Source: Candidatus Cloacimonadota bacterium (GTDB lineage: Bacteria; Cloacimonadota; Cloacimonadia; Cloacimonadales; Cloacimonadaceae). From it: a stretch of DNA of 64,000 nt. The notes under the pieces are model-generated. The model was not told where the DNA came from, did not search any database, and was given only the letters and a program-made list of their open reading frames with translations. Positions 3 to 62,157 of this stretch are shown here, piece by piece. Every line of letters starts with the position of its first letter. The stretch's first letter is position 1. Location: NCBI GenBank assembly GCA_020532545.1, contig JAJBAW010000007.1, positions 1-64,000 on the forward strand, given 5' to 3'. Both the position numbers and the translations under genes were made by a program.

Positions 3-1268
3 GGTACCCACTTATACAACACTTTGGGTTTGGAGCCCGAGAAATTTCAAAGAATAGACTTCCGGGATGAGTATTTCCAGAAGGAAGAGACGCTGGATGC
101 TTTTGTGAAGCAGTGTGACGTGATCGTGCATCTGGCGGCTATGAACCGGCATAACGATCCGGGCGTATTGTATCGAACCAATATCGAGCTCGTGCAAAGG
201 CTGATCGATTCTATGGAAAGGACGGAGGCAAGACCTTATGTGATTATGAGCTCTTCGCTGCAGGAAGAGCGGGATAATCTTTATGGACGGTCCAAACGGG
301 AAGGCAGGGAACTTTTTAATAAGTGGGCAGACCGCAATGATGCTGCCTTTACTGGCTTGATCATTCCGAATGTATTTGGTCCTTTTGGGGTGCCGTTCTA
401 TAATTCTGTGATATCTACCTTTTCGCATCAGGTCGTTAATAATTTGGTGCCGAAGATTGAGGTGGATGCGGAGTTGAAGCTGATCTATGTGGGAGATTTG
501 GTTAGAAAGATAATTGGTTTGTTTCCCGCAGATAACGCAGATATGGGCGCAGATTTCGCTGATTTGAATAGTCACACGGATTTTACGGATGGGACGGATC
601 AACGCGGATTGGGTTTTGCAACCACCGAGAACACCGAGAACACTGCAACCACCGAGAGCACCGAGGACACCGAGGTTGGGGAGAAGGGTAATTCTCAATT
701 CTCAATTCTCAATTCTCGATTGAATTTGCCGAGGCAGATTCAGGTGGAGCATATGGCTGAGTTTAAGGTATCGGAACTGCTGGAGAAATTGCAGGGTTTT
801 AGGGAGATGTATCAGCTTAAGGGGATATTTCCAGAGCTGAATGATAGATTTGAACTGGCTCTTTTTAATACCTTCCGGAGCTATCTGCCGAATGAGCATT
901 TTCCGGTGAAGTACATGAAGCATGCAGATCCCAGAGGGGTGTATGTGGAGGCGATGAAGTTTTGTTCTGGTGGACAGGCAGCGTTCTCTACTACTGTACC
1001 GGGTATTACGCGAGGGAATCATTTCCATACCCGCAAGGTGGAACGGTTTGCGGTGATTCAGGGTAAGGCTTCCATCAAGCTAAGGAAATACGGAACTGAT
1101 GAAGTGATAGAGTATATATTGGATGGCAATGATCCGGCTTATGTGGATATGCCTATCTGGTACACGCATAATATCACCAATATCGGGGATGGAGAGCTGC
1201 TGACTATGTTTTGGATAAATGAGTTTTATGATCCGGGTGATCCGGATACTTTCTTTGAAAAAGTTTAG
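3..1268 (+). CDS. capF: CapF-like UDP-sugar reductase/epimerase (5' truncated by window edge)
   Basis: The reading frame is open from the left edge, so the N-terminal Gly-rich NAD(P)-binding motif lies outside the window and the first Met-type codon (TTG at 24) is not the true start. The N-terminal part is an extended short-chain dehydrogenase (HLAAMNRHND, then YGRSKREGREL carrying the Tyr-x-x-x-Lys-type pair, then NVFGPFGVPFYNS). The C-terminal part, from about residue 275 counted from 24, is a cupin (GITRGNHFHTRKVERF). This SDR-plus-cupin order is that of CapF/WbjC/FnlB, which acts between CapE and CapG in cytoplasmic UDP-N-acetyl-L-fucosamine synthesis. The next gene is CapG-like, which supports the assignment. 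Between the two domains, residues about 168-233 are encoded by intergenic-type word repeats read in frame, absent from the family as I know it. Confidence 0.85.
   Translation, partial: GTHLYNTLGLEPEKFQRIDFRDEYFQKEETLDAFVKQCDVIVHLAAMNRHNDPGVLYRTNIELVQRLIDSMERTEARPYVIMSSSLQEERDNLYGRSKREGRELFNKWADRNDAAFTGLIIPNVFGPFGVPFYNSVISTFSHQVVNNLVPKIEVDAELKLIYVGDLVRKIIGLFPADNADMGADFADLNSHTDFTDGTDQRGLGFATTENTENTATTESTEDTEVGEKGNSQFSILNSRLNLPRQIQVEHMAEFKVSELLEKLQGFREMYQLKGIFPELNDRFELALFNTFRSYLPNEHFPVKYMKHADPRGVYVEAMKFCSGGQAAFSTTVPGITRGNHFHTRKVERFAVIQGKASIKLRKYGTDEVIEYILDGNDPAYVDMPIWYTHNITNIGDGELLTMFWINEFYDPGDPDTFFEKV
525..721. repeat. Three word-repeat families inserted in frame in capF
   Basis: Three consecutive low-complexity blocks lie within the CapF-like reading frame. 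Bases 525-613 are variations on GCAGAT/GCGGAT, 618-680 repeat ACCACCGAGAACACCGAG-like words, and 690-721 repeat AATTCTC. All three kinds resemble intergenic repeats; the first and third occur elsewhere in this window between genes. The block is preceded by GTTTCCCGCAGAT, which matches the terminus of the gene-free element at 1292-1388 apart from one T. It keeps the frame, contains no stop, and falls at the linker between the SDR and cupin domains. Confidence 0.85.
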
Positions 1269-1291
1269 TTTCACTAAATAAGCTGGGTTTT

Positions 1292-1388
1292 CCCGCAGAT
1301 TTCGCAGATGCAATGCGCAGATCACGCGGATCGATAAATTACTAATAAATCTGCGATATCTGCGTTCTAAATCTGCGCTATCTGCGGG
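1292..1388. repeat. Gene-free inverted GCAGAT-word element
   Basis: The left arm starts CCCGCAGATTTCGCAGAT and the right arm ends ATCTGCGCTATCTGCGGG, so the ends are inverted copies; flanking bases extend the match to GTTT(T)CCCGCAGAT. The centre is short, AT-rich and has no gene. The right end lies only a few bases before the purine-rich stretch and ATG of the CapG-like gene at 1404, so the element occupies the whole capF-capG intergenic space and contributes its 5' untranslated region. It could fold into a long imperfect hairpin in the transcript. Confidence 0.8.
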
Positions 1389-1403
1389 AAACAAAGGGAT
1401 AAG

Positions 1404-2551: not shown

Positions 2552-3020
2552 GCGTTAATCGTTAAACGGTAAATGTTAGACGGTAAGCGGTAAAAGTTAG
2601 ACGTTAGGCGTTAGACGTGAAGGAAGAATTATGATTCATAAGGATATGGAAGTTTATAAGTCAAGCATGCTGCTTGTAAAGTATATCTACGAGCTCAGTT
2701 CAGCTTTTCCTAAAGAAGAAATCTATGGGCTTACATCACAGATGCGAAGGGCGGCCGTGTCGGTTCCATCCAATATTGCTGAAGGAAGCGGACGTAGATC
2801 GCCCAAGGAGCTATTACAATTTCTTAACATAGCTCTGGGTTCCCTTGTTGAGCTTGAAACGCAATTAGAGATAGCTCATATGCTCAAGTTCTCGATTGAT
2901 AAAGAAAAACACAAGGTAATCGAAGACCAAGTCTTGAAGGTCAAACAGCTCCTTCTGGGTTTGATTAGATCAATGCGAGCAAAATCTACCGTTTAACGTC
3001 TAACGTTTAACGTCTAACGT
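2552..3020 (+). mobile_element. Inverted-word element carrying a four-helix-bundle gene (family GTTAGAC)
   Basis: The left arm (2552-2618) is a run of GTTAAACG, GTTAGACG and GTTAGGCG words ending GTTAGACGTTAGGCGTTAG. The right arm (2989-3020) is the same vocabulary in reverse complement: CCGTTTAACGTCTAACG followed by another copy. Between them lies only the four-helix-bundle gene. The stop codon of that gene (TAA, 2994-2996) is inside the right arm, and the arm ends 6 bases before the ATG of the deacetylase gene. No target-site duplication was identified by eye. Calling it mobile is an inference from repeated architecture at three loci. Confidence 0.65.
2631..2996 (+). CDS. Four-helix bundle protein (23S rRNA IVS/S23 family, Avd-like)
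   Basis: A 121-residue, mostly helical protein with the family signature LTSQMRRAAVSVPSNIAEG near residues 38-56, then GRRSPKELLQFLNIALGS. This family was first known from open reading frames in intervening sequences of 23S rRNA genes (Leptospira, Coxiella). It is structurally related to Avd of diversity-generating retroelements, a positively charged four-helix bundle that binds RNA and reverse transcriptase. No catalytic residues are expected, and no reverse transcriptase lies nearby. A GGAAG-type ribosome site precedes the ATG. It is bracketed by inverted word repeats, one of which supplies its stop codon and last residues. It is very similar to the protein at 5639. Confidence 0.85.
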   Translation: MIHKDMEVYKSSMLLVKYIYELSSAFPKEEIYGLTSQMRRAAVSVPSNIAEGSGRRSPKELLQFLNIALGSLVELETQLEIAHMLKFSIDKEKHKVIEDQVLKVKQLLLGLIRSMRAKSTV

Positions 3021-3026
3021 AACACC

Positions 3027-3782
3027 ATGAAAGATTTTACTGTAAAAATGTACTCAGATTTGCTGGATGCCATCATGGGAGCTGGATATGCGTTTCAAAC
3101 CTTTAGAGAGTATCTGAGGGAGCCTCTTGAGAGAGTGGTGATTCTGCGGCACGATGTGGATAAAAGGCCGGAGAATTCGCTGACATTCGCGGAGATTGAG
3201 CATGCAAAGAAGCTGAAGGCTTCTTATTTTTTTAGGGTGGTACCGGAGTCTTTGCAGCCTGATAAACTGCTTGCTATAGCCAGGATGGGGCATGAGATTG
3301 GTTATCACTATGAGGATATGGACTTTGCTAAAGGGGACTTGGAAAAGGCCTTGGAGTCGTTTGTCCAAAACCTCCAATTATTGCGAAAGCTGGCTCCGAT
3401 AGATACGATCTGTATGCATGGCAGCCCACTCTCCAGATATGACAACAAAGAGCTTTGGCGCCATTATGATTACCGGCAATATGACATTTTGGGCGAGCCT
3501 TATTTTGATCTGGATTATAGCAAGATCTTTTACATTACCGATACGGGTAGAAAGTGGAATAACACGGAGGCCAGTATCCGGGATAAAGTGGATAGTCCTT
3601 TTCAGATTGAGGTGAATAGCACAGATCATTTTATCGAGCTCTTGAAAGTAAATGCCATGCCGGATCAGATGATGATCAATACGCATCCACAGAGATGGGA
3701 TGATGGGCTTGGGCCGTGGATTAAAGAGCTGGTGGGGCAGACCTTGAAGAACCAGATTAAAAAGATGATTTCACGCAGATAG
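3027..3782 (+). CDS. Polysaccharide deacetylase-family protein
   Basis: A 251-residue cytoplasmic-looking protein with no signal peptide. It has the deacetylase-fold motif RHDVDKRPENS near residues 41-51 (metal-binding Asp pair), HEIGYHYEDMDF near 90 and CMHGSPLSRYDN near 130. It resembles the WalW/NodB-like proteins found in surface-polysaccharide loci; the substrate is unknown. Its setting is unusual at both ends. The ATG comes 6 bases after an inverted GTTTAACGTC-word array with no good ribosome-binding site. The last codons (Ile-Ser-Arg-Arg-stop) are read from the CACGCAGATAGCGCGG word array of the next element, so the original C-terminus may have been replaced. Confidence 0.75.
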   Translation: MKDFTVKMYSDLLDAIMGAGYAFQTFREYLREPLERVVILRHDVDKRPENSLTFAEIEHAKKLKASYFFRVVPESLQPDKLLAIARMGHEIGYHYEDMDFAKGDLEKALESFVQNLQLLRKLAPIDTICMHGSPLSRYDNKELWRHYDYRQYDILGEPYFDLDYSKIFYITDTGRKWNNTEASIRDKVDSPFQIEVNSTDHFIELLKVNAMPDQMMINTHPQRWDDGLGPWIKELVGQTLKNQIKKMISRR

Positions 3783-3823
3783 CGCGGATAAAGGCGCAGA
3801 TTTTCGCAGAGGGTGACAACAGT

Positions 3824-4201
3824 ATGACTGAGAATGAAATCGGATACAAGGTTCGGGGTGCTTGCTTTTCTGTATATAACGAGCTTGGAGCGGGTCTTTT
3901 GGAAAGTGCCTATGAACAGGCTTTGACATATGAGCTAAGGAATTTGGGCTTACGGGTAGAAACTCAGGTTCCGATTGAGACGAGCTACAAAGGTCAGTCG
4001 ATTGGCACAGGGTATCGATTGGATATATTAGTTGATGGTAAGGTGATTGTTGAACTAAAATCTGTAGAAAAGCTCTGTGCAGTGCATCACAAACAGCTAT
4101 TGACCTATTTGAAATTAACGGGGCTGAAACTTGGTTACCTGATTAATTTTAATACAGATAAGTTGTCTGACAATCTCGTCCGATACGCGAATAAGTTGTG
4201 A
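3824..4201 (+). CDS. GxxExxY protein (PD-(D/E)XK nuclease-like)
   Basis: A 125-residue protein of the GxxExxY family (TIGR04256). The naming motif is GLLESAY at residues 24-30. The core YRLDILV...VIVELKSVEKL gives Asp67, Glu77 and Lys79, matching the D-(D/E)-x-K pattern of the PD-(D/E)XK nuclease superfamily. The family's molecular role is not established; nuclease activity would be an inference from the motif. The gene stands alone in a GCAGAT-word element and is followed by two broken copies of itself, which points to mobility rather than a part in polysaccharide synthesis. Ribosome site: a GAGGG stretch within the repeat header. Confidence 0.85.
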   Translation: MTENEIGYKVRGACFSVYNELGAGLLESAYEQALTYELRNLGLRVETQVPIETSYKGQSIGTGYRLDILVDGKVIVELKSVEKLCAVHHKQLLTYLKLTGLKLGYLINFNTDKLSDNLVRYANKL

Positions 4202-4265
4202 TTATCAAGTGATTTCACGCAGATAGCGCGGATAAAGACGCAGATTTTCGCTGAGAGACTTTAAC

Positions 4266-4411
4266 ATGAGAGAAAATGAAATTGGATATAGAGTAAGGGG
4301 TGCTTGTTGCTTTTTGTATATAATGCACTTGGAGTATCCTGGTGCAATAGGTAAATAAATTATTCTGCTAAGTTGTCTGACAATCTCGTCCGATACGTGA
4401 ATAAGTTATGA
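4266..4411 (+). pseudogene. Internally deleted GxxExxY copy
   Basis: The 5' end reads MRENEIGYRVRGACC, matching the start of the intact gene at 3824. The sequence then jumps to its 3' end (SDNLVRYVNKL and a stop), so roughly two thirds of the gene are missing. The middle is frame-disrupted and contains TAA codons. The copy has its own GCAGAT-word header immediately upstream. Confidence 0.8.
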
Positions 4412-4475
4412 TTATCAAGTGATTTCACGCAGATAGCACGGATAAAGGCGCAGATTTTCGCAGAGAGACTTTAAT

Positions 4476-4572
4476 ATGAGAGAAAATGAAATCGGATATA
4501 GAGTAAGGGGTGCTTGTTTTTTGTATATAATGCACTTGGAGTATCCTGGTGCAATAGGTAAATAAATAATTC
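4476..4572 (+). pseudogene. 5' fragment of GxxExxY gene
   Basis: Only the start (MRENEIGYRVRGAC) and the same scrambled middle as the previous remnant are left. It runs directly into the closing inverted ATCTGCG array. It shares the junction TTTTTTGTATATAATGCAC-type middle with the 4266 copy, so both remnants descend from the same deleted ancestor, and the last one later lost its 3' end. Confidence 0.75.
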
Positions 4573-4625
4573 TGCGTTGATCTGCGCCTTTATCTGCGTG
4601 ATCTGCGTGCAACAAAGAGATTAAA

Positions 4626-5555: not shown

Positions 5556-6120
5556 GTTTTAGCGTTTTAGGGTTTTAACGTTTTATCGAGGCGCGGAGTT
5601 TCAGTGTTTTATCGAGTCGCGGGAATTGGAGATTGGTTGTGAAGAGTTTTAAAGATTTAGAAGTTTGGAAGCTGAGTATAGATTTCGTGGAAGACGTTTA
5701 TAAACTGACAGGCGCTTTTCCTGAGAACGAAAAGTTTGGATTGGTGTCTCAGATGCGTAGAGCGGCTGTGTCTATCTCTTCTAATATAGCTGAAGGGCAA
5801 GGCCGCAAGAATTCCAAAGAGTTTATCCAGTTCTTGTATATTGCCAAAGGATCATTGGCTGAAATAGAGACGCAACTCATAATCTGTGAACGCTTAGGCT
5901 ATACTGCCAACATAATAGAGCTTACCGAGAAGATGAAAAGAATCAGAATGATGATCGTAGGTCTCATAAACGCATTGTATAATCAGAGTGGCCAACAACC
6001 TCACAGCCTTAAACCTCAAAAATAGGAACGTAGGCTCCACTACTGCATTACACAGCTAAAATGACCGACAACCCTAAAACGTTAAAACCTTAAAACGTTA
6101 AAACCTTAAAACCTCAAAAC
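5556..6120 (+). mobile_element. Inverted-word element carrying a four-helix-bundle gene (family GTTTTAA)
   Basis: The left arm (5556-5588) reads GTTTTAGCGTTTTAGGG and GTTTTAACGTTTTATCG. The right arm (6072-6120) is the reverse complement vocabulary: CCCTAAAACGTTAAAACC repeated, ending CCTCAAAAC. The only gene inside is the four-helix-bundle protein at 5639. Architecture and orientation match the elements at 2552 and 61038, but the word itself is different. A short stretch, ATCGAGGCGCGGAG / ATCGAGTCGCGGG, is also repeated between the left arm and the gene. Confidence 0.65.
5639..6025 (+). CDS. Four-helix bundle protein (23S rRNA IVS/S23 family, Avd-like)
   Basis: About 128 residues. I choose the GTG at 5639 (giving (M)KSFKDLEVWKLS, the usual family start) rather than the TTG at 5633, because GGAG at 5628-5631 is well spaced only from the GTG. 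The signature VSQMRRAAVSISSNIAEGQG and SKEFIQFLYIAKGSLAEIE closely match the protein at 2631. The last residues (SLKPQK) are encoded by sequence already resembling the right-arm words. The role is unknown; the related Avd binds RNA. It interrupts an otherwise coherent polysaccharide operon between an epimerase and an LmbE-type gene. Confidence 0.85.
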   Translation: MKSFKDLEVWKLSIDFVEDVYKLTGAFPENEKFGLVSQMRRAAVSISSNIAEGQGRKNSKEFIQFLYIAKGSLAEIETQLIICERLGYTANIIELTEKMKRIRMMIVGLINALYNQSGQQPHSLKPQK

Positions 6121-44331: not shown

Positions 44332-44477
44332 GGCGAAGACAGCACCACTGACTGTACTGGACCAAGCAGGAGGGTGTGACAAGAAACTTGACAATATACG
44401 GCGGATCATTTTACTTCCACTTCATATAAAATATTGTGATAGGATGGCTATTTTGAAAGATAGATTGCTTGGATTAC

Positions 44478-44544
44478 ACGCTCCGTCTAAAGACAGAGTT
44501 ACGGGGATTTCTGGCCATGCTCCGTCTGAAGACAGAGTTACGGG
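44478..44544 (+). repeat. REP pair directly upstream of the RAYT start
   Basis: Two copies of ACGCTCCGTCTAAAGACAGAG / ATGCTCCGTCTGAAGACAGAG-type sequence, each ending AGTTACGG, lie 10 bases before the transposase ATG. They are in frame with the gene but are not part of the protein. Confidence 0.85.
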
Positions 44545-44554
44545 GGGTGCGAAG

Positions 44555-45190
44555 ATGGAATATAGACAGATGTACAAAAGAAATCTGCCTCATTACCAGC
44601 CCAAAAATGGACTGCTGTTCGTGACCTTCAGGCTGAATTTTGCGGTACCAGCACAATACATCAATGCCTATCATAAATATCGTGAAAGTCTCGAAGCGCA
44701 GCTTGACATAAAAGAATCCATAAAGCCCCAGCAGATAGTCCTGCATAAGAAACTCTTTGACTTTGTCGATAATTATTACCCCGAAATCCACAGTGAGATA
44801 GATCTGACCAAGCCCCCTGAAATCGCAATTTTGCTCTCTGATATCCTGCGTTCTCTACACGATGAATATTATGCTTTATACGCCTTTACGATCATGCCAA
44901 ACCACGTACATATCTTGCTGAAACCGCTGACGGTCGATGAGAAGGATCTCTCTTTGGCAGAGATTATGCACAAAATCAAGGGGAGCAGTGCTCGCCAGAT
45001 AAATCTGGTGTTACAGCGGCAGGGAAAGTTGTGGCAACGGGAGTATTATGATCATTGGGTGCGGACAGATCAGGAGATGTGGAATGTGGTGGAATACATC
45101 AGGCAAAATCCAGTGAGAGCCAAGCTGGCAAGCGATCCGGAGTGCTGGCGGTGGACTTGGATAAATCCAGAACTGGGTAGGAAGATATGA
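44555..45190 (+). CDS. REP-associated tyrosine transposase (RAYT, Y1/TnpA_REP)
   Basis: About 211 residues from ATG 44555. An in-frame ATG at 44444 would translate the REP repeats (HAPSKDRVT twice), so it is not used. Visible motifs are LLFVTFRLNF near 18, the HUH site in IMPNHVHILLKP near 115-126 and KLWQREYYDHWVR near 150. The Tyr-containing VEYIRQNPVRAKL near 175-187 is the usual catalytic tyrosine region. RAYTs are single-strand DNA endonucleases related to IS200/IS605 TnpA that act on REP hairpins. The gene appears intact and sits between two 190-base direct repeats loaded with REPs. Confidence 0.92.
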   Translation: MEYRQMYKRNLPHYQPKNGLLFVTFRLNFAVPAQYINAYHKYRESLEAQLDIKESIKPQQIVLHKKLFDFVDNYYPEIHSEIDLTKPPEIAILLSDILRSLHDEYYALYAFTIMPNHVHILLKPLTVDEKDLSLAEIMHKIKGSSARQINLVLQRQGKLWQREYYDHWVRTDQEMWNVVEYIRQNPVRAKLASDPECWRWTWINPELGRKI

Positions 45191-59960: not shown

Positions 59961-61043
59961 ATGGCACGTCTGAAAGTTCATATTAACCGCCTCATCGAAA
60001 ATATCGAAACCATCTCAGCCTTTATGCGCAAGCATGAGAAAGAATGGACCCTGGTGGTAAAGGTCTTGGGTACACATAAAGAAATCTTGGCCAAGCTCTT
60101 GCAGCATCCTGCCATTCTGGGGACCCATTCTATCGCCGTCTCTCAATGTAAGGCTCTGCGCATCATCAAAGAGCTGAATCCAAGCCTGCGAACCATGTAT
60201 ATCAAACCGCCGGCCATAAAAAACGTGGCTGAAATAGTAAAATATGCGGATATATCTCTAAATAGCACGATAGCAACCATTAAAGCGCTCAGCGATGAGG
60301 CGGTAAAACAGGATAAGATGCATCAGATCATCGTGATGGTGGAAATGGGCGAATTGCGCGAAGGCATCAAACGCGAGGGATTGATTCCTTTTTATAATAA
60401 GATTTTCAAACTGCCGAAACTGCAGGTGATCGGGATCGGCACCAATCTGGGCTGTATGTACGGTATTCAGCCTACTTACGACAAGCTGATCCAACTGGTG
60501 CTTTTTGAACAGATCATTGAAGCCAAATTCAAGCGCTCGATAGAATTGGTCTCTGGAGCCACCAGCATCACCATGCCCATCATGGAGCGCGGCAAAGTGC
60601 CAGATGGGATCAATCATTTCCGTATCGGCGAAGCGGCCTTCCTGGGCACTTCTCCCTTGGAGAATAAACCCATCCTGGGCCTGAATACCGGTGCCTTCAC
60701 CTTTGAGGCCAATATCGTGGAGCTTTATAAAAAGGCCAGTCAGCCAGATGGAATCATCAGCGAGGCCGCCATCGGCAGTACTGTGGAAGATAGCTCAAGC
60801 GAAGAAAGCACCAGTTACAAAGCTATCATGGATTTTGGCGTATTGGATGTGGATGCCGAACTCCTGATTCCGGAAGACCCGGAGATACAATTCTTTGGCA
60901 ATAGCAGCGACCTCACGGTGTATGATCTAGGAGATAATCCCCGCGGCTATAAGACGGGTGATACGATCAAATTCCGCCTCAAATATATGGCCGTTGCGAA
61001 TCTGATGTACTCTCGATTTGTCGAGAAAATCATCGTTAATTGA
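59961..61043 (+). CDS. PLP-dependent amino-acid racemase (ornithine racemase/YhfX-like)
   Basis: 360 residues of the alanine-racemase-fold group that includes ornithine racemase. The PLP lysine is probably Lys34 in LVVKVLGTH; later MVEMGELREGI, IGIGTNLGCMYG and LVSGATSITMP shape the barrel, and HFRIGEAAFLG is near 225. The substrate is undetermined. It starts two bases after the GNAT gene. Its last codons (Val-Asn-stop) run into an AATTGAG word array that provides the TGA. Confidence 0.8.
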   Translation: MARLKVHINRLIENIETISAFMRKHEKEWTLVVKVLGTHKEILAKLLQHPAILGTHSIAVSQCKALRIIKELNPSLRTMYIKPPAIKNVAEIVKYADISLNSTIATIKALSDEAVKQDKMHQIIVMVEMGELREGIKREGLIPFYNKIFKLPKLQVIGIGTNLGCMYGIQPTYDKLIQLVLFEQIIEAKFKRSIELVSGATSITMPIMERGKVPDGINHFRIGEAAFLGTSPLENKPILGLNTGAFTFEANIVELYKKASQPDGIISEAAIGSTVEDSSSEESTSYKAIMDFGVLDVDAELLIPEDPEIQFFGNSSDLTVYDLGDNPRGYKTGDTIKFRLKYMAVANLMYSRFVEKIIVN

Positions 61044-61520
61044 GAATTGAGTATTGAGAATTGAGAATGGAGAATTAATCGGCAATGTGGAGATAGATGT
61101 TCATTTTGGAGCTCCTTTGGAAGTCTTGATGATTGCCGTCAAAATTCGGATGATTTCATTGATGTCTTCTTTGAGAGGGGTAGAGGGGCTTATGAATTCT
61201 GCCCCTATTAGTAATCTTATCCAGTATTCTGTTTCTCTGGCTTCTTTCAGGGCTATGGAAAGTTTGTGCACGAAATCAGCTTTCGATTGGGCTTCGCATG
61301 CTTCGCTGACATTAGCGCCTATTGAAGTGCCCGATTTTAGTATCTGTTTCGAGAGCAGATATTCGTGATTATTTGAACTTAAGTCCCTATATAAAGAGAC
61401 AATCTTGAGAGCAAAGCTAAAAGTCTTATCTGCTATTAAGTTCTCTTTTGCCATCTAGTCCTCCACCACCGATCAATTCTCCATTCTCAATTCTGCATCC
61501 TCCATTCTCCATTCTCAATT
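61038..61520 (-). mobile_element. Inverted-word element carrying a four-helix-bundle gene (family AATTGAG)
   Basis: The left arm (61038-61080) is AATTGAGAATTGAGTATTG followed by AGAATTGAGAATGGAGAATT. The right arm (61471-61520) is the inverse (CAATTCTCCATTCTCAATTC, then CATTCTCCATTCTCAATT). The inner 23 bases of the two arms match with one difference. The sole gene inside is the minus-strand four-helix-bundle gene. Both neighbours' stop codons (TGA 61041, and TAA 61519-61521 on the minus strand) lie in or against the arms. Confidence 0.7.
61101..61454 (-). CDS. Four-helix bundle protein (23S rRNA IVS/S23 family)
   Basis: 117 residues. Signature KQILKSGTSIGANVSEACEA near 37-56 and DFVHKLSIALKEARETEYWI. 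It belongs to a different subgroup from the proteins at 2631 and 5639 (LIADKTFSFALKIVSLYRDL start, no RRAAVS) but the same fold. Function is unknown; RNA binding would be expected from Avd-type relatives. It is enclosed by inverted AATTGAG words and wedged between the convergent racemase and response-regulator genes. Confidence 0.85.
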   Translation of the reverse strand: MAKENLIADKTFSFALKIVSLYRDLSSNNHEYLLSKQILKSGTSIGANVSEACEAQSKADFVHKLSIALKEARETEYWIRLLIGAEFISPSTPLKEDINEIIRILTAIIKTSKGAPK

Positions 61521-62157
61521 ATTTCTTCTCTCTTTCTTTCTTGAGCTTTTCAAATTGCGGTTTCACATGGGTTTCATAGCAATCCGGACAGATAGAGTGG
61601 GAAAACATGGTATCGGTATGCTCGGAGATATAGCCTTCGACTTCCTGCCAATAGTTCTTATCAGCGCGGATCTTCTTGCAATATGAGCAGATCGGGATGA
61701 GCTTTTCCAGGGAGCGAATTTGTTTGGCGGCGTTCACCAGTTCCTGACGCTGTTTTTCCATACGCAGAGCGCTTTTCACCCGTTGCACGAGCTCAAGATT
61801 GGAGAATGGCTTGCTGATGAAGTCCATCGCACCCAGTTCAAAACTGCGGGCCAAGGGCTCCATGTTTTCGTCCAAAGCGGCTGCGGTGATCATGATGATG
61901 GGGATGTCTTCCAGGTCGGTATCCTGTTTGATCCATTCCAGCACATCATAGCCACTCACGCCGGGCATCATGATGTCCAGCAGCAGCAGATCGGGGCGAT
62001 TGTGCATGAGCTCATCCATCATGGATTTGCCGCTAAAATACAGCTTTAAGTTTTGGAATCCGGCTTGGTTGAGCACGGTTTTGACGAGCTTGAGATTGAT
62101 TTCGTCGTCATCAGCCACGTAGATCAACATGTCTTTTAGTTCTTCGAATTTAAACAT
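61519..62157 (-). CDS. Response regulator with C-terminal CxxC pair module
   Basis: 212 residues. The receiver domain covers 8-128 with acidic pocket ADDDE, phospho-acceptor Asp61 (LLLLDIMMPG), Thr91 and Lys116 (SKPFSN). A helix leads to a C-terminal module with Cys157, Cys160, Cys190 and Cys193 (CSYCKKIRADKNYW; HSICPDCY), a pattern found at the ends of many two-component proteins and probably zinc-binding. There is no DNA-binding domain. Seven bases downstream of ctpA on the same strand; no histidine kinase is in the window. Confidence 0.85.
   Translation of the reverse strand: MFKFEELKDMLIYVADDDEINLKLVKTVLNQAGFQNLKLYFSGKSMMDELMHNRPDLLLLDIMMPGVSGYDVLEWIKQDTDLEDIPIIMITAAALDENMEPLARSFELGAMDFISKPFSNLELVQRVKSALRMEKQRQELVNAAKQIRSLEKLIPICSYCKKIRADKNYWQEVEGYISEHTDTMFSHSICPDCYETHVKPQFEKLKKEREKK

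Follow-up and report, generated by a model that had tools for sequence, protein, structure and literature searches.

Word repeats in the linker of a CapF-like gene of Candidatus Cloacimonadota resemble the arms of gene cassettes

A block of short word repeats is translated in frame within a capF-like gene of a Candidatus Cloacimonadota bacterium. The gene lies at the edge of the 64,000-nucleotide stretch of DNA analysed here (the window). The block is probably a run of single cassette arms, which accumulated in frame at a tolerant linker between two enzyme domains.

Results

The capF-like gene and its insert

The domain search of the capF-like open reading frame matched both the NAD-epimerase domain (PF01370) and the cupin domain (PF14667). 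Foldseek returned CapF proteins as the best matches, and Cap5F of S. aureus (2zkl) matched with E=5e-63. The score against NCBIfam NF047837 was 234.7 bits, below the equivalog cut-off of 500 bits; because this cut-off was not reached and the N terminus is lost at the contig edge, the gene is named only CapF-like. The SDR and cupin domains are conserved. Comparison with the orthologue L020 gave dN 0.10 and pS 0.72 for the gene body and pS 0.26 for the linker. Judged from its sequence, capF is a live gene whose body is under purifying selection.

The first-pass annotation had placed a repeat block at 525-721, read in frame without a stop. The block was found as described, and a six-frame check of its whole length revealed that the frame used is the sole open one. 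Alignment to CapF homologues shifted the edges to about 521-725. In place of the estimated 65 or so linker residues, the excess over the uninserted Cloacimonadota orthologues L004, L005 and L006 is 62 residues, and the three word families proposed became four, arranged as five units on the + strand in the order W1-W2-W3-W3-W4 (Table 1). The family words are CGCAGAT (W1), ACGGAT (W2), CACCGAG (W3, two units) and AATTCTC (W4). In the 2zkl alignment query residue 170 pairs with 180 and 253 with 202, so that the linker has 82 residues compared to 21 in S. aureus Cap5F. AlphaFold modelled residues 178-239 with pLDDT <50 between domains that it predicted with confidence for the most part, and the insert is predicted to form a disordered linker. 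The translated peptide is polar and acidic (D+E = 21%).

Table 1. Features of the capF block and of the word-armed elements in the window
Feature	Position (nt)	Strand	Description
capF-like gene (SDR + cupin)	3-1268	+	5' end cut by window/contig edge
W1 unit	521-566	+	GTTTCCCGCAGAT-NN-CGCAGAT-N4-CGCAGAT-TT-CGCTGATT; peptide FPADNADMGADFADL
W2 unit	567-609	+	AATAGTCACACGGAT-N3-ACGGAT-N3-ACGGAT-N2-ACGCGGAT; peptide NSHTDFTDGTDQRG
Two W3 units	617-675	+	27-bp tandem CCACCGAGAACACCGAGAACAC (TRF); peptide ATTENTENTATTESTEDTE
W4 array	690-721	+	(AATTCTC)4.6 (TRF); peptide NSQFSILNSR
Peptide stretch			TTENTENTATTE; predicted, in the translated capF block
Gene-free palindromic W1 element	1288-1395	.	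capF-capG spacer; inverted repeat
FHB cassette	2553-3020	+	GTTAGACG arms flanking TIGR02436 gene 2631-2996
GxxExxY cassette	3766-4613	+	W1 arms 3766-3811 and 4571-4612; TIGR04256 gene 3824-4201; partial tandem copies
FHB cassette	5555-6121		gene at 5633; inverted arms
FHB cassette	61030-61525	-	W4 (AATTCTC) arms flanking TIGR02436 gene 61101-61454

Words as the arms of cassettes

The left boundary of the block had been reported to carry the same end as a gene-free element 570 bases downstream, and the agreement is exact: GTTTCCCGCAGAT at 521 is repeated in the right arm (1392-1371, minus strand) of this palindromic element, whose left end reads TTTTCCCGCAGAT. This shared end is meaningful, since the exact W1 pattern GTTTCCCGCAGAT-N4-CAGAT occurs four times in eight genomes and each time in or beside capF. 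The W1 unit of capF also aligns with palindrome arms and with the arms of GxxExxY cassettes; none of 500 shuffles equalled it.

Family-wide, 46 of 57 GxxExxY (PDDEXK_3) genes lie between inverted arms that score above the 99% level of shuffles, against 8/57 in the direct-repeat control and 1/47 for the other genes of the window. The GxxExxY gene of the window and three four-helix-bundle (FHB) genes (2631, 5633 and 61101) lie inside inverted word arms with scores of 18-36. The vocabulary of 7-11-nt words differs between cassettes and is matched between both arms of one (window, L218-L279). Arms of W1 type were seen in L219, L252 and others, of W2 type in L260, of W3 type in L254 and of W4 type at FHB gene 61101; thus cassette arms account for each of the four families stacked in capF. 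The GxxExxY and FHB genes share these arms and, to our knowledge, have no known transposase activity. The cassettes possibly represent an undescribed class. No target-site duplication was evident in the inspected flanks of intergenic W2 elements (156-157 bp). The lone control gene with inverted flanks (44444-45190, score 24) has two AGTTAC words near its start. The region 4152-4575 of the window holds partial copies in tandem (157 nt, 94%) that repeat the beginning of the GxxExxY cassette, W1 arm included.

Cassettes or palindromes adjoin capF in all four species with an insert. Directly upstream of capF, L003 and L020 have a GxxExxY cassette with W1-type arms and G017 has one with W3-type arms. 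The capF-capG spacer is filled by a palindrome in the window, L020, L003 and L006 and by a nested W2 element in L021, and is a bare 13 bp in L004/L005. In L003 and L006 the spacer palindrome occupies the same place and has W2 arms, and the two interiors are unrelated, which suggests independent insertions or replacement of the interior.

Orthologues and the age of the insert

Words were found in the same capF linker of the genus-mate UBA5210 (L002/L020, +38 residues), of a member of a second genus (L003 of genome G012, +52) and of L021 (JAKQLB010000098.1, deposited as Bacteroidota, +53). These three inserts have the same flanking residues and each is open in frame. The L004/L005/L006 genes have +0 residues and no words in the linker, and no word precursors were seen in the uninserted capF linkers. 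Equally long linkers free of repeats had been named as the observation that would speak against insertion; the uninserted homologues are in fact 38-62 residues shorter. The unit order is constant across the four inserted genes and the contents differ: W1-W2-W3-W3-W4 in the window, W1-W2-W4-W4 in L003, W2-degraded W3-W4 in L020 and W2-W3-W3-AATTTAC array in L021. The L021 protein is 81% identical to that of the window though its contig is filed under Bacteroidota; the contig is probably misbinned.

The third-position identity of W2 between window and L003 was 0.80, a value reached by 0/328 windows of the gene body; the other capF pairs were less extreme. The W2 unit of G012 capF matches its own intergenic copy at 37/41 positions versus 28-32/41 for other capF units, and that of the window matches its own genome at 37/41 versus 32-35/41. 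No preference for own-genome copies was observed for L020. From these base comparisons the words are younger than the capF gene, or homogenised relative to it, and the W2 similarities fit re-copying from a local pool.

These data bear on the chief rival explanation, which we regard as rather unlikely: one ancestral W1-W2-W3-W4 chain passed on by vertical descent, was lost in L004/L005/L006 and had its words held by selection on the linker peptide or on the DNA words. Order and phase are the same in all four capF genes, and the double-W3 junction ACTGCAACCACCGAGA is common to the window and L021. In the capF tree the window gene forms a group with L020 and L021 at a support of 99/99, and the AU test does not reject a single inserted clade (p 0.121). 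The same tree, however, places L003 outside and prefers two changes, with one inserted clade in 1% of bootstraps. The synonymous sites of the body are saturated but those of the words are not, and the G012 W2 unit resembles its own intergenic copy, both contrary to one old insertion.

Word families in genome and phylum

Pattern searches of the own genome against the reversed patterns gave 33 versus 0 matches for W1, 72 versus 0 for W2, 29 versus 1 for W3 and 62 versus 0 for W4; the 0-1 matches of the controls ruled out random low-complexity DNA as the nature of the words. W2 is a 41-nt block of four words with the fixed left end TAGTCACACGGAT genome-wide, and its intergenic copies have an architecture identical to the capF unit. 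Two W2 blocks often lie on opposite strands at a distance of 135-136 bp and thereby form gene-free palindromes of 156-157 bp. Intergenic chains of the own genome run W2 to W3 at least four times and W1 to W2 once. W2 is patchy in the phylum (14/125 genomes), ranging from 62 copies to none inside one genus. At G000:C60:5258-6076 (L119-L123) five W2 units follow one another at ~190-215 bp spacing with W1 units interleaved on the opposite strand. Further intergenic vocabulary was seen at G000 loci L095-L112 and L033-L061, namely GGATTGCAGGCGTCTCGCCTGCAGAGC and, ahead of W2, CAGCTGGTGCGTGCAGCAAA.

It is improbable that the block grew out of native linker sequence by local slippage or tandem expansion. 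Such growth agrees with W3 as a 27-bp tandem of 9-mers and with W4 as a 7-mer array. The block nevertheless holds four unrelated vocabularies, the ends and word number of W1 and W2 are fixed and match genome-wide copies, and the uninserted linkers contain no word precursor. The proposal that words arrive as units with defined ends rather than by slippage therefore holds for W1 and for W2, with its fixed left end and word number, but W3 (27-bp tandem) and W4 (7-bp tandem) fit local duplication and could have grown by it.

In-frame copies in other genes had also been envisaged. Among about 160 unique word sites listed from the own genome at up to 30 loci per pattern, a large sample and no census, a credible coding frame over the words was seen in capF only. 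When 50 genomes of the family were searched at the protein level, long open frames running across words were likewise confined to capF orthologues. The 1925-aa frame L081 of G030 was set aside as a natural repeat protein by reading, L060 as a chance match and L137 as an antisense frame that is spurious. The frame is open in 4/4 capF W2 units, which are not independent of each other, versus 7/28 intergenic units.

Structure of the block as RNA

The capF block showed no RNA hairpin (fold z +0.8 versus shuffled RNA) and no right arm, only left arms; the fold of the gene-free palindrome 570 bp downstream gave z -8.8. A whole palindrome inside capF was ruled out, right arm and hairpin being absent. 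Removal of the segment from RNA or protein, as an intron, an intein or an RNase III-excised element of the intervening-sequence (IVS) type, is very improbable. Related FHB proteins are indeed encoded in 23S rRNA IVSs that RNase III excises (PMC4990558). Since the hairpin is absent from the block and present in the palindrome, excision by such a stem is unlikely for capF, and the frame is open and polar in four orthologues. The Rfam scan of the window matched tRNA alone, with no rRNA, intron or other known RNA and no match in the block. An assembly error or a pseudogene is scarcely credible: capF does start at the contig edge of a MAG, but three other assemblies carry like inserts, which excludes an assembly fault of the kind that the first-pass annotation had considered, and the gene body is under purifying selection.

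Discussion

The accumulation of single cassette arms in capF, which we hold likely, may be pictured as follows. A full element would carry a GxxExxY (PD-(D/E)XK-like) or FHB (23S-IVS-type) gene flanked by inverted word arms, while a gene-free one would be a palindrome. Single arms would have been copied into the codons of the SDR-cupin linker, in the window lineage and in the G012 lineage, and kept only where their phase left the frame open and the linker polar, acidic and disordered. The linker may later have gained and lost sequence in frame, with re-copying out of the own-genome pool, perhaps from the neighbouring cassette. As a guess, a single arm lacking its partner might insert through template switching or through conversion, with an adjacent inverted element as donor. 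We infer that the arms are mobile, that the adjacent cassette is the source and that the protein tolerates the insert. Against the arm model stands the block itself, which, unlike a whole element, is made up of left arms alone and shows no RNA folding beyond that of shuffled sequences. The first-pass annotation had pictured serial insertion at one point in a live gene; the live gene and the domain linker are upheld, but the units look like single arms and some perhaps arrived together, given the ready-made intergenic W2 to W3 chain.

A further proposal is offered tentatively. The products of the GxxExxY and FHB genes might belong to a single, as yet undescribed class of mobile cassette, which would recognise its own arms, copy them locally and repeatedly write single arms into the same capF codons, and element ends would thereby evolve as a disordered linker under reading-frame selection.

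A literal search of the literature for the words gave no match. Nothing relevant was found on Cloacimonas repeats or on repeats of FHB or GxxExxY genes, and GxxExxY had passing mentions only in the literature searched. Cyanobacterial heptamer repeats (STRR) are arrays of 7-nt words; they are like the 7-nt arrays of W4 but differ from W1-W3, which have 9-nt words and fixed unit ends. MITEs and small palindromic repeats (ERIC, RUP, Correia) resemble the ~157 bp gene-free palindromes in their terminal inverted arms and mostly intergenic position, whereas the Cloacimonadota arms consist of arrayed 9-nt words whose vocabulary changes.

Of the known systems, the Rickettsia palindromic elements (RPE, Ogata et al. 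2000) come nearest; PMC10969869 and PMC2229807 describe them as 105-150 bp palindromes, in frame in many unrelated genes and also intergenic. The likeness lies in a non-coding repeat that is carried in frame as a tolerated extra peptide and is also intergenic. In contrast to RPE, the capF block stacks several arm families as single arms with no palindrome or hairpin, and the words are in the linker of one gene only (among the ~160 word sites listed), not in many genes.

The intervening sequences of 23S rRNA encode an S23/FHB protein and are excised by RNase III (PMC4990558). They share with the present elements an FHB gene between inverted arms (three window genes) and repeated tolerance at the same permissive loop. 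Here, however, the elements sit in intergenic DNA and in a protein linker, the vocabulary is common with GxxExxY cassettes, and the in-gene capF block has neither FHB gene nor stem. All three FHB genes of the genome are on this contig among protein genes, and Rfam gave no rRNA in the window.

Conclusion

The arm reading would give an origin to a puzzling repeat vocabulary, its words being the arms of cassettes that carry GxxExxY or four-helix-bundle genes. The capF linkers of four species would then form a natural record of non-coding repeats turned into protein where a linker tolerates them, and relatives with empty sites allow a comparison.
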